A stretch of 64,000 nt of DNA from a bacterium (GTDB lineage: Bacteria; Patescibacteriota; Gracilibacteria; Peribacterales; Peribacteraceae), in assembly GCA_029558515.1 (NCBI GenBank), contig JAKQEM010000032.1, positions 1 to 64,000 on the forward strand, read 5' to 3'. The translations under genes were made by a program, and so were the position numbers. The notes under the pieces were generated by a model. That model was not told the origin of the DNA, did no database searches, and was given only the letters and a program-made list of their open reading frames with translations. Positions 39,223-54,707 of the stretch are shown piece after piece (the first letter of the stretch is position 1; each line of letters begins with the position of its first letter).

Positions 39223-39230
39223 TCCTGTTC

Positions 39231-39300
39231 CTCCGTTATTCCGTTACTCCCTTATTCCGTTACTCCGTTACTCCGTTACTCCTCGTTACGCCTTTATTCC
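39231..39300 (+). repeat. ccgttactc microrepeat, right flank of second four-helix gene
   Basis: About seven degenerate tandem units (ccgttactc, ccgttattc, ccctttattc) ending at the pyrG stop. Reverse complement is the agagtaac family at 38695-38731. Confidence 0.65.
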
Positions 39301-49252: not shown

Positions 49253-51631
49253 TCAAAGCATCTCCCGCACTCCCCGCATCTGCTCCTCCGAGAGGATCTT
49301 CCGCAATACCGCATCCGGTGCTCTCTTCACCGCATCGACGGACCCGAATTCCTGCAACAGTTTCTGCCGTGTCAGAGGCCCGATGGACGGAATGCGATCG
49401 AGCGCGGAGGCTGTGAGCGTCTTCGACGCGCGTTTGGTCCGGTGGCGATTGGCGAAACGATGCGCTTCATCCCGCAATCGCATCAGAAGAAATTTCGCCT
49501 GACTGTCTTTGGAAAAGAGAATCGGTACAGGTCGTCTTGGCACGAACACTTCCTCCTCCCGCTTGGCCAGTCCGATCACAGGAATTGTAAGATCAAACTT
49601 CTTCAAGACATCGACCACCGTGGAGAGCTGCCCCTTGCCGCCGTCGATGACGAGGAGATCGGGAGCAGTCGAAAGAGAGACATCGGGTTTATGCTGTGCC
49701 GTATCGTACACCAATACCGGTCGCTCGACGCCGTCGGGATGATCCTTGCGGTAGCGTTCCCAACGCTCCTGGAACACGGCGGGGGGTTTGAGCACATGTC
49801 GGAAACCCATCGTTTCGTAATAACGCTCGATTCCCTCGGGGATCGCGTGGACGTACACTTTTCCCTTCTTCACGGATTGCAGCAACTTGCGAATGAGCAC
49901 ACTCGCCAAATGATTGCCCCGATACGGTTCATCGACCCAGACAGAAGCGAGTTCCAACAACTTTCCCGCATGCTCCCGGAGCCGGACAAATCCGGCGATC
50001 TCTTCCTCATGCCGCGCCACGAGAAATGTCTTGTAGTCCAGATCGGACCCGCTGAGATCGTCCTCCCGCTCAATGATCGTCCGGATCGTCTCCGCCTCGG
50101 ATTTCCTCGCTTTTCCAAACACAATGCCTCCCTCCTGCCACTGCTTCTCCTCAAACGCCAGACCGCCGACCAGGTGCCGCAGACGCCGCGTCAGCACTTC
50201 TTGGAGCGCACGATAGTCATCGATAGCCCCGCGCTGCATGGAGCGAATGGTGAAGGAACGATACTGATCGCTCTGCGCTTTGCCATGGAGAAAAACTGAC
50301 ATGCTGCCGACCGTCTCCGTCCCGCCCAAGTGCGAGATGTCGTAGCCTTCGATGCGCCGAGGCGGCGCGGGAAGATCCAATGTGCGGGCAAGTTCACTGA
50401 GCGCCTCCGTGAGATTCCGTTCCTCCGCCTCCCAACCGGCTTCGTACTGCTTGGCCTTCTCCTGCGCGTTCTTCTCCGCCAGCTGCAGCAGCTGCGACTT
50501 ATTCCCGCGTTCGGGAATGCGCACCGAGACGTTGCGCCCGTGACGCTGACTGAGGAATTGCTCCACCGTCGTGCGACCGGGAAAATCCTCCGCCACCAGA
50601 ATGATCTCCGGCAGGTCCGCGACATCACGGTACAATTGCGGCAGAAATTGCTCCAACACCTCGGCAGGAGATTCCGCACGACCGGAGAGTGCAAAACTCT
50701 CCTCATCGATCAACTTCCCCTCGCGCTTGCGCATCAACACGACTTGAACTTTTCCGCTCAGAAGAGCCATTCCTATCACATCCACATTCTCCCCCGACGT
50801 ATCCGACACAATTTGTTTCCCCTTGAGTTCCTCCACCGACCGCAGCATGTCCCGCAGATCCTTCGCACGCTCGAAGCGCTTCGCGGCGGCCGCCTCCATC
50901 ATCTGCGCCTTCGCCCGGGCGATAACCGGATCGTAGTTCCCGCGGAAAAACCCCATCACCGCATCGATGCGGGTGCGATACTCCTCCCGTGAGACGGCAC
51001 CCGCGCACAGCCCGCAACACCGTCCGATTTGGTAGTCCAAACACGGCTGCAATTTCTCCGTTTGATGCGCGGCCGCGCCGTCACCTTCCCGACGATTCAG
51101 CGCATCCAGAGATTGCTTGCATGCGAGAAACGGGAAGATGAGGTGCAGCATGTCGATGGACTGCCGCGTGTGATACGCGCTCACATACGGGCCGAAGTAC
51201 TTCGCGTTCGCATTCCTCATCTGGCGCACCACCGCGACGCGCGGAAAGGGATCCTCCGTCGTCACCTCCACGTACACGTAATTCTTGTCATCCTTCATCA
51301 GCACGTTGTACTTGGGACGCATTTCTTTGATGAGATTGGTTTCCAGCACCAGCGCCTCCAACTCGGAATTGACCACCGTCACATCGAAATCCGCGATCTG
51401 CCGCAGCATCGATTGCTTCCACGGACCCTGTCCTTTCGCCGCGTCCTTCGCAACGTAACTGCGCAAGCGATTCCGCAGATTCTTCGCCTTGCCTATGTAG
51501 AGCACCGTTCCCGCCTGATCTTTCCACCGGTACACACCCGGACCCGCGGAAGCACGCGCCACCCGCTTCCGCAGGGAAGGAAGGTGGGGATTGTCCGAAC
51601 CGATCTTGGCGGAGGCTGCGTTGCTAGTCAC
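49253..51631 (-). CDS. uvrC: UvrC excinuclease with inserted GNAT acetyltransferase domain
   Basis: 792 residues from GTG 51631 (leader attctgtcctt); a GTG at 51715 overlapping the upstream stop adds 28. GIY-YIG domain (GPGVYRWKDQAGTVLYIGKAKNLRNRLRSY), zinc-type Cys cluster (CLDYQIGRCCGLC), UVR motif (AKRFERAKDLRDML), RNase H-like nuclease with Asp in EGYDISHLGG, Asp in LLVIDGGKGQLS and His in LRDEAHRFANRH, and C-terminal helix-hairpin-helix. Between the first and second nuclease Asp, residues ~500-610 form a GNAT domain (FLVARHEEEIAGFVRLREH, ELASVWVDEPYRGNHLASVLIRKLL, ERYYETMGFRHV). Normal UvrC has ~600 residues. It makes the dual incision in nucleotide excision repair; the GNAT part is unexplained. 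Confidence 0.93.
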   Translation of the reverse strand: MTSNAASAKIGSDNPHLPSLRKRVARASAGPGVYRWKDQAGTVLYIGKAKNLRNRLRSYVAKDAAKGQGPWKQSMLRQIADFDVTVVNSELEALVLETNLIKEMRPKYNVLMKDDKNYVYVEVTTEDPFPRVAVVRQMRNANAKYFGPYVSAYHTRQSIDMLHLIFPFLACKQSLDALNRREGDGAAAHQTEKLQPCLDYQIGRCCGLCAGAVSREEYRTRIDAVMGFFRGNYDPVIARAKAQMMEAAAAKRFERAKDLRDMLRSVEELKGKQIVSDTSGENVDVIGMALLSGKVQVVLMRKREGKLIDEESFALSGRAESPAEVLEQFLPQLYRDVADLPEIILVAEDFPGRTTVEQFLSQRHGRNVSVRIPERGNKSQLLQLAEKNAQEKAKQYEAGWEAEERNLTEALSELARTLDLPAPPRRIEGYDISHLGGTETVGSMSVFLHGKAQSDQYRSFTIRSMQRGAIDDYRALQEVLTRRLRHLVGGLAFEEKQWQEGGIVFGKARKSEAETIRTIIEREDDLSGSDLDYKTFLVARHEEEIAGFVRLREHAGKLLELASVWVDEPYRGNHLASVLIRKLLQSVKKGKVYVHAIPEGIERYYETMGFRHVLKPPAVFQERWERYRKDHPDGVERPVLVYDTAQHKPDVSLSTAPDLLVIDGGKGQLSTVVDVLKKFDLTIPVIGLAKREEEVFVPRRPVPILFSKDSQAKFLLMRLRDEAHRFANRHRTKRASKTLTASALDRIPSIGPLTRQKLLQEFGSVDAVKRAPDAVLRKILSEEQMRGVREML

Positions 51632-51711
51632 AAGGACAGAATACCGCGTTTCCCTCCCCGACTCACCCCGGTCCGCTCTCTTCTCCATCGAAACACTCTG
51701 AGATGCAACCG

Positions 51712-52596
51712 TCACTGCACGTCGCCCGTTCCGTCTCTTCCATCAATTGTACCGCGCGTTGCACCGGCACCGGCCTGCTTCACGGGAGAAATCCCCAGTG
51801 CCATGGCAATGAGACGCTGTTCCACCACCGCAGGCAGATCTCCGTAAAGATCACGATACTCTGCACTATCCAAATCATGCAACGCATGCAACTTGGCAGG
51901 CATATCGATGGAACGTATGCCCGGAGGAAGATCAAAGCGAACCAAGCTGACTTTGTTTACAACACACTGGATAGGCACTCGCCTTTCCCTCTCCAATGCC
52001 GGAACATCATAGCATAGCAATTTACCAGTAGTATCAAGCGACAGAAACCGTGCCTGCATCCATCCAAGGTCCTCGAATAAATATTGCTGAACGTTTGAGT
52101 CGGTGAAATCGCATAATGGTCGTTCCTGTTGATCCACTGGTTGTGCGGAAAATTGCTGCAATACCTCCTCCCGCGTCGGCAGGGGACCACATTCGAGCAT
52201 TGCAAGCGTTGTATCCAACTCTTCTCTTCCACCCGGCGTCAATAAATCACGTGTATTTGCGGAATTCTTCTGAATCAAATTACGAATTTGGAGAGAAGCA
52301 AGTCCTTGAACGGTATCAATAATAGGCGCGCCGTCAGTCGGCCTCTCTCGCGATAGATCCCCGGCCGCAGAACGGATCAGAAACTGAGCGTACTTCTGAT
52401 TCTTCGCCAGCAAAAAAGGATATAAATAAATAACGTTCACATCATCATGCTGAAAATACGACACAATCGCATGTACCCAATACTTCCGCCCCGCCACCAC
52501 ATAGGGTGCATAGACTATATCTCCCTTCCGACAAATGGGAGAGACCTGCCGTTCCGCATCCGGTTCGGTACCCAAAGGCTTTGGTGCATTTGACAT
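51712..52596 (-). CDS. Hypothetical protein, tandem paralogue B
   Basis: 294 residues. N-terminus MSNAPKPLG with GDIVYAPYVVAGRKYWVHAIVS, then a conserved block (SAAGDLSRERPTDGAPIIDT) shared with the adjacent gene, a middle QLFEDLGWMQARF region and the end VRFDLPPGIRSIDMPAKLHALHDLDSAEYRDLYGDLPAVVEQRL. No known family. It is clearly a duplicate of the 52624 gene: starts, leaders and most motifs match. Its stop overlaps a potential GTG start of uvrC (GTGA). Confidence 0.75.
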   Translation of the reverse strand: MSNAPKPLGTEPDAERQVSPICRKGDIVYAPYVVAGRKYWVHAIVSYFQHDDVNVIYLYPFLLAKNQKYAQFLIRSAAGDLSRERPTDGAPIIDTVQGLASLQIRNLIQKNSANTRDLLTPGGREELDTTLAMLECGPLPTREEVLQQFSAQPVDQQERPLCDFTDSNVQQYLFEDLGWMQARFLSLDTTGKLLCYDVPALERERRVPIQCVVNKVSLVRFDLPPGIRSIDMPAKLHALHDLDSAEYRDLYGDLPAVVEQRLIAMALGISPVKQAGAGATRGTIDGRDGTGDVQ

Positions 52597-52623
52597 AGGA
52601 CGGCCACCCTACCCCTATTTCTT

Positions 52624-53511
52624 TTAGTATGTCAACTCCCCCCTGCCACCCGCTCCGCCTCTTCCATCGATTGTGCCGCACGTTGCACCGGCATCTGCCT
52701 GCCCAACGGGAAGAATCCCCAGTAGAGTGGCGATGAGACTCCGTTCCACCACTTGAGGCAGATCTCCGGAAAGATCAGCATATCGCTTCAAGGTCAAATC
52801 ACGAAATGCACCCCATTGAGCGGACGTATCGATGGAACGTGTACCCGGAGGAAGATCAAAGCGAATGCCTGTTATGCTTCCTGACGCGTATCTTGTGGGT
52901 ACGCTCCTTGTCCGCTCCATTGCCGGAACATAATATTGCAGACTTGCACTATTTCGTTCGTAGGGCTGAGCCCAGGCACGCAACCATGCGCCTTCATAGT
53001 AGAGATAATAGATTTTCTCCGGGTCGATAAAATCGTCTAATGGTCGGTTTTCATGATACACTCGTGGTGCAGAAAATTGCCGCAATACCTCCGCCCGCGT
53101 CGGCAGCGGACCACATTCGAGCATTTTATGCAATTCAGCCAACTTTTGTCTTCCATCCGACGTCAATAAATCACGTGTATTGGCGGCATTCTTCTCAATC
53201 AAAAGACGAATTTGAAGAGAGGCAAATCCATCAAAGGTATCAATGACAGGCTTGCCGTCAGTCGGCCTCTCCCGCGAAAGATCCCCGGCCGCAGCAGAAA
53301 TCAGCAGCGGAGTGTGTTGCTGCGAGTGCGACAGAAAAGAAGGGTAGAGAGTAACTTTACCATCTCTGCAAACATGCGACGCAGTCGCATGAACCCAATA
53401 CTTCTGCTCCGCCACCTCGTAGGGTGCATAGACCATATCTCCTTCTTGAATGGGAGGGACCTGCCGTTCCGCATTTGGTTCGATACACAAAGGATTTGGT
53501 GCATTTGACAT
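52624..53511 (-). CDS. Hypothetical protein, tandem paralogue A
   Basis: 295 residues, homologous end to end with the gene 27 nt downstream (MSNAPNPLC, GDMVYAPYEVAEQKYWVHATAS, SAAGDLSRERPTDGKPVIDT, RFDLPPGTRSID, RYADLSGDLPQVVERSLIA). The conserved blocks alternate with variable ones, as in surface or structural proteins. No signal peptide or membrane helix is visible, so cytoplasmic. Function unknown. The 20 nt before both ATGs are also alike, so the duplication included the translation signals. Confidence 0.75.
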   Translation of the reverse strand: MSNAPNPLCIEPNAERQVPPIQEGDMVYAPYEVAEQKYWVHATASHVCRDGKVTLYPSFLSHSQQHTPLLISAAAGDLSRERPTDGKPVIDTFDGFASLQIRLLIEKNAANTRDLLTSDGRQKLAELHKMLECGPLPTRAEVLRQFSAPRVYHENRPLDDFIDPEKIYYLYYEGAWLRAWAQPYERNSASLQYYVPAMERTRSVPTRYASGSITGIRFDLPPGTRSIDTSAQWGAFRDLTLKRYADLSGDLPQVVERSLIATLLGILPVGQADAGATCGTIDGRGGAGGRGELTY

Positions 53512-53837: not shown

Positions 53838-53893
53838 GAAAACATGCCACCAAAGCGTGTCATCTGCTACCATGGTACCGATTTCCAGTGACG

Positions 53894-53928
53894 AATCCCT
53901 AATCCCCAATCCCCAATCCCCAATCCCC
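53894..53928 (+). repeat. Heptanucleotide (aatcccc) tandem repeat at the glycosyltransferase 5' end
   Basis: Five consecutive 7-nt units (first one aatccct, then four aatcccc), immediately before the conserved start of the glycosyltransferase reading frame. A 7-nt unit shifts the frame by one with each copy change. Confidence 0.85.
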
Positions 53929-54707
53929 TCGTCTCCGCCATCGTCCTCAATACCCGTGAAGCCGCGCGCACGGTGCGCTGCGTGCAGGCGCTTCTGATGC
54001 AAACCATCGCGCAGGAGCTGGAAATCATCATCGTCGACAATCACTCGCAGGATGATTCCATCGGCATTCTCCGCAATCGTTTCGGACAGTATCCGCACAT
54101 CCGCATCGTCGAAAATGAACGCAATCGAGGATTCGGCCAGGGCAATGCGGCGGGCATTCGTCATGCGACGGGCACGTACCTGCTGATCATCAACCCTGAT
54201 GTCACGCTGCCACACAACGGCCTGGAACAGATGACGCACGCGATGGAGGCAGACCCGTCCATCGGCTTGCTCGGTCCGCAACTGCGGTTTGAAGACGGCA
54301 CGATCCGCCGCTCCTTCCGATCCTTCCCCCGGCTGTCTGACGTGTTCATCAAGCGGACCATTCTGCGTTTTTTCCTCCGGAAACGGCTGGATCACTATCT
54401 AAGCACATCCATCGACCCCTCGCAGGTGCAGGATGTGGACTGGCTTGCGGGCGGCTGCATCCTGATGCAACGAACATTTTTCAACGAACTGGGCGGTTTC
54501 GACCGAAGATTCTTCCTGTTTTTTGAGGATACGGACCTCTGCAGGCGCATCTGGAACGCAGGAAAGCGCGTCGTTTACTATCCCACGGTACGGGCCGCGG
54601 ACGGCAAACAGCGCCTCAGCGAGGGCGGATGTTTCTCGATCTTCACCAAAAAAACCGTGCGCATCCATCTCTGCAGCGCAGTGCGGTATTTTTGGAAGTG
54701 GAGATAG
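53928..54707 (+). CDS. Family 2 glycosyltransferase, possibly phase variable
   Basis: ~260 residues. GT-A fold: first strand VSAIVLNTREAARTVRCVQALL, IIVDNHSQDDSIG, DXD-type region HATGTYLLIINPDVTLPHN, then a catalytic-site pattern DWLAGGCILMQRTFFNELGGFDRRFFLFFEDTDLCRR, usual in rhamnosyl- and related transferases. It moves a sugar to an envelope glycan. The frame lacks a start codon at its conserved beginning: it is open back to a TGA at 53889-53891, and the first canonical start (GTG 53973) would delete the first strand. ATG 53872, just upstream of the repeats, is one nucleotide out of frame and would be in frame with one more or two fewer repeat units. Confidence 0.85.
   Translation, partial: LVSAIVLNTREAARTVRCVQALLMQTIAQELEIIIVDNHSQDDSIGILRNRFGQYPHIRIVENERNRGFGQGNAAGIRHATGTYLLIINPDVTLPHNGLEQMTHAMEADPSIGLLGPQLRFEDGTIRRSFRSFPRLSDVFIKRTILRFFLRKRLDHYLSTSIDPSQVQDVDWLAGGCILMQRTFFNELGGFDRRFFLFFEDTDLCRRIWNAGKRVVYYPTVRAADGKQRLSEGGCFSIFTKKTVRIHLCSAVRYFWKWR

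Follow-up and report, generated by a model that had tools for sequence, protein, structure and literature searches.

Why does a glycosyltransferase (GT2) gene of a Peribacteraceae bacterium carry a heptanucleotide array at its 5′ end, where a start codon would be expected, and does that array switch the gene on and off? A preliminary description had read the locus as a contingency locus for surface glycans. We analysed the locus within the window, by which we mean the whole stretch of 64,000 nucleotides to which all positions refer, and compared it with the rest of the genome and with relatives. Our preferred reading, to which we give a probability of roughly 60%, is that a generic array born by slippage lies in the leader and N-terminus of a core GT2 gene that has no standard start and is likely still translated.

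The heptad array and the GT2 reading frame

The array occupies 53894–53928 on the forward strand and consists of one AATCCCT unit followed by four AATCCCC units (GGGGATT on the opposite strand). TRF called it with period 7, 5.0 copies, 96% matches and the consensus AATCCCC, confirming that five 7-nt units lie between ATG 53872 and the conserved GT2 frame; Rfam and tRNA scans found no match at the array site. The open GT2 frame (53892–54707, forward strand) is bounded upstream by a TGA in the same frame at 53889–53891, is free of stops from 53892 to 54704 and ends with a TAG at 54705. Its 271 codons show coding-like usage and encode a GT-A GT2 domain (PF00535, E = 2.4e-22; PF13641, E = 1.4e-14), with the Pfam Glycos_transf_2 match beginning at residue 15 of P0001, which corresponds to profile position 1. 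The N-terminal peptide stretch is PNPLVSAIVLNTR, in which the array is read without interruption as IPNPQSPIPNP before the conserved LVSAIVLN. The repeats had been described as stop-free in every frame, which they are not: in the third frame, the divergent first unit contributes a TAA at 53900.

From 53892 to GTG 53973 we found no ATG, GTG or TTG in the GT2 frame, and a protein begun at GTG 53973 would lack the first 13 residues of the Glycos_transf_2 match. GT2 is thus without a usable start at its conserved N-terminus, as had been proposed. What the gene lacks is a start codon; the array itself runs on in frame with it. ATG 53872 was correctly placed out of frame by 2, as it precedes GTG 53973 by 101 nt (2 mod 3).

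Two in-frame ATC codons on the forward strand are candidate non-canonical starts. One (53895–53897) belongs to the first unit and follows the beginning of the CATGGTAC element described below by 24 nt, a spacing that we set beside those found in orthologs; the other (53916–53918) aligns with the ATG of MENPLVS-type orthologs. Judged from these positions, AUC 53916 or 53895 would be the likeliest initiation codon for GT2. Against this, E. coli starts translation very poorly at AUC.

GT2 orthologs and a recurrent upstream element

GT2 orthologs with a readable N-terminus were present in 53 other genomes, from Candidatus Peribacteraceae and Peregrinibacteria records; none of the other genomes searched belonged to the same genus. 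Most orthologs have their start, ATG or GTG, between one and six codons ahead of PLVS. Three GT2 genes have no in-frame upstream ATG, GTG or TTG: the one studied here, that of G013, whose start region lies within 9-nt repeats, and that of G030, which sits on a single 1.24-Mb contig. In G004, a comparable heptad-like tail (MSLFQTPIPNPTPLVSAIVLN / MSLFQTPIPNPTPLVS) follows an ATG in frame. Because an ortholog is present in nearly all members of the family, GT2 is a conserved core gene and not an accessory glycan gene.

ATG 53872 is contained in the element CATGGTAC (53871–53878, forward strand). Matches to TATGGTAC at 7 or more of 8 positions occur upstream of 8 of 54 orthologs, where shuffles lead one to expect 1.1. 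The element, [C/T]ATGGTAC, mostly lies 21–35 nt before the conserved PLVS codon in the orthologs and 54 nt before it in this genome, and its frame relative to GT2 differs from one ortholog to the next. As its frame is not constant among the orthologs that carry it upstream, we infer that ATG 53872 is not a start codon but part of a probable promoter −10 region; growth of the array has probably displaced this box from the gene. A generic scan for the sigma-70 consensus called no forward-strand promoter at the site and did not call the element, so we treat the −10 assignment as putative.

Several features of the neighbouring DNA are recorded here in their own right. The uvrC gene (49253–51715, reverse strand) encodes a GNAT domain (Acetyltransf_1, E = 7.7e-10) inserted within the RNase H region of UvrC. 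In three relatives, heptads of different sequence occupy what is apparently the same loop of UvrC, before a CLE(F/Y)QIGKC-type motif (L065 14464–14504, L096 3888–3918 and L140 15674–15695). The uvrC and GT2 genes are divergent neighbours in several relatives; here, two adjacent genes (51712–53511, reverse strand) sit between them and encode related proteins of about 294 amino acids, both beginning with MSNAP and neither with a match in Pfam.

Heptad arrays across the genome

The genome comprises 1.31 Mb in 49 contigs; density and frame statistics were drawn from about 300 kb of it and about 1.15 Mb of relatives. Period-7 arrays occurred at 16 per 100 kb over all sampled stretches and at 10 per 100 kb where the stretches had not been selected for repeats, which by extrapolation gives about 130 arrays in the whole genome. 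Sequences shuffled from that sample under a Markov model yielded none. Among the relatives, densities in the sampled stretches reached 20 per 100 kb at most, and at the other extreme there were no arrays. AATCCCC was the commonest heptad class in the sample, and a two-unit 16-mer was found at eight genome sites on both strands, the GT2 site and seven elsewhere, which places it with the genome-wide GGGGATT-type class (PMC4692102). The arrays are spread over intergenic DNA and core enzymes, with no concentration at contingency-type genes. In the passages searched, the Peribacter riflensis genome paper makes no mention of heptads. A second repeat class also occurs, made up of 8-nt arrays of the GTTACTCC / GGAGTAAC family (window 39225–39282 and L042 3060–3149), one of which overlaps the N-terminal extension of transketolase.

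Arrays inside genes mostly keep the reading frame. Counting an array as in-gene when both of its flanks are coding on one strand, we found that this genome keeps the frame across 19 of 21 such arrays and the relatives across all 12 of theirs. By chance, a third of the arrays would do so (P = 8e-8 when this genome is taken by itself). One additional array in a relative contains stops, looks intergenic and stands outside the 12. Two of the 19 (L043 869–962 and L049 7420–7475) have stops in the read-through and may be intergenic, and dropping them, which leaves 17 of 19, does not change the conclusion. Pfam-confirmed genes with in-frame arrays include those for TpiA (triosephosphate isomerase), Fmt (methionyl-tRNA formyltransferase), Tkt (transketolase) and TrmD, together with the cell-wall enzymes MurB, MurG and Mur ligases (MurF). 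The in-frame arrays in core enzymes, at loci L039, L041, L042, L049, L051 and L054, have units of 7 or 14 nt and encode recurring peptides such as PNPQSPI, TTHHSQL and NAKCKMQN; comparison with solved structures places the heptad stretches in short variable or inserted segments. Since slippage at contingency rates would be costly inside essential genes, short heptad arrays are probably fairly stable.

Comparison with known repeat systems

Heptads of the GGGNATC / GGGGA(C/T)T type occur genome-wide in Xanthomonas and Nostoc, mostly as short arrays in which four units are commonest, with some in genes, and the G-rich strand of GGGGATT-type heptads forms quadruplexes in vitro (PMC4692102). The repeats described here resemble them in the unit itself (GGGGATT is AATCCCC), in their spread over the genome and in their presence in some genes. 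They differ in that many other heptads coexist with them, in that the host belongs to the Peribacteria (CPR) and in that the in-gene arrays lie in frame in core enzymes. In Beggiatoaceae, TAACTGA heptads lie directly upstream of start codons and overlap the ribosome binding region, at housekeeping genes among others (PMC4679880). Tandem 7-nt arrays at gene starts, including those of housekeeping-type genes, are common to both systems, but there a single fixed heptad is used, whereas here there are many and at GT2 the start codon itself is absent.

In H. influenzae, the promoters of the surface adhesin genes hmw1A and hmw2A contain 13–38 heptad units, and a TonB-dependent receptor gene has strain-dependent heptads of 1–7 units 13 bp upstream (PMC2651432). 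The GT2 array is likewise a 7-nt simple sequence repeat (SSR) at a gene 5′ end that could alter expression or frame; unlike those at the hmw promoters, it has five units and belongs to a core gene. Tandem repeats within open reading frames of Borg elements keep the frame and add amino acids, with units divisible by three (PMC9879509). The in-gene heptads do the same with a 7-nt unit, so that the frame is kept by total length only.

Alternative explanations for the array

The chief alternative is a dedicated contingency locus, in which gain or loss of a unit shifts ATG 53872 into or out of the GT2 frame and a surface glycan is now OFF. GT2 has the form of such a locus, as its unit of 7 nt is not a multiple of 3 and lies at the 5′ end of the frame, with ATG 53872 out of frame, and the heptads of the H. 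influenzae TonB-dependent receptor gene show that short upstream arrays can vary by strain (PMC2651432). The best support comes from two other genes that break at AATCCCC arrays. SufC is split, with family model positions 1–195 and 196–242 matching on opposite sides of the array and in different frames (L040 2492–2544; contig 42, about 66991–67043, with the array at 66988–67037), and no other locus in the genome exceeds the SufC family cut-off. A second GT2 (L043 1370–1414, contig 12) shifts frame at its AATCCCC array, and an earlier array of AATACCC type in the same gene is in frame. Both genes and the frame of ATG 53872 are out by the same phase. Frame breaks at heptads exist in the consensus, be they real slippage, a population mixture or assembly error. 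The second shifted array of the 21 counted above, in a TsaB-like gene (L043 487–511), may just sit at the gene end. We considered +1 slippage of the ribosome at CCCC and rejected it, since a shift of −1 (or +2) would be required in SufC and in the second GT2.

A further argument for a switch is that heptads recur upstream of GT2 in other lineages. Scored at 9 or more within 90 nt upstream of the gene, they were found in 11 of the 48 other genomes compared, where the remaining gene starts of those genomes predict 4.2 (P = 0.0014, about 2.6-fold), in a comparison that excluded this genome, took its control starts from ORF calls and not from homology, and was prompted by the finding itself. The enrichment is modest and stands over a high generic rate, with heptads at about 10% of intergenic gene starts.

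Weighed against a dedicated switch are the probable −10 box that contains ATG 53872, the array's mere five units, the core status of GT2 and the similar in-frame arrays of essential genes, in which frequent slippage would carry a cost. Because an estimated 130 or so arrays are spread over the genome, many of them in frame within essential genes, generic repeat growth is likelier than a dedicated switch. Of the proposal of a contingency locus now OFF, what stands is a 5′ repeat with a 7-nt unit and no start; the −10-like ATG, the abundance of arrays and the core gene speak against it, and we regard it as unlikely, though the foremost of the alternatives.

Rather less probable is a family-wide variant, in which the GT2 5′ end is a repeat site conserved in position but not in sequence across the Peribacteraceae and acts as a translational switch or tuner. 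Arrays lie at or just before the GT2 start in seven genomes with 7-nt units (G000, G007, G010, G021, G025, G032 and G049) and in three with 9-nt units (G013, G018 and G054). Lineages would have acquired their arrays independently, several of them without a standard start, and any repeat would serve; this part of the proposal is similarly doubtful.

We give comparably little weight to an error of consensus or assembly, by which the true number of units differs and the start is not really missing. The draft genome is fragmented into 49 contigs, an array divides its sole full-scoring SufC match between two frames, and the ATG 53872 frame, SufC and the second GT2 share one phase offset. Yet ordinary short reads are far longer than an array of 35 nt, and the frame is kept across at least 19 other arrays within genes. 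A corrected count would give no start either if ATG 53872 belongs to a promoter. A recent pseudogene, in which the repeat destroyed the GT2 start, would account for the lack of a standard start but is improbable in view of the 271 intact codons, their coding-like usage, the core status of the gene and the two other lineages that retain the GT2 frame without a standard start.

Origin and meaning of the GT2 array

If generic repeat growth accounts for the GT2 array, heptad repeats would arise by slippage and expand in intergenic DNA and in tolerant protein loops and tails across the family. At GT2, the array would have expanded between the promoter and the conserved gene start, where it would come to be read into the enzyme as a short tail, with loss of the standard start codon. 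Translation of the gene probably continues, most likely at a low level, from one of the two near-cognate AUC codons.

Should the locus instead prove to be a switch, these uncultivated, ultra-small bacteria would have a contingency locus that acts on translation. If the preferred reading of generic repeat growth is true, a non-triplet SSR near a glycosyltransferase start would be insufficient evidence for phase variation, and caution in calling it is advisable because these same repeats occur within essential genes without breaking their frame. Heptad repeats would then supply proteins of this CPR lineage with new loops and tails.
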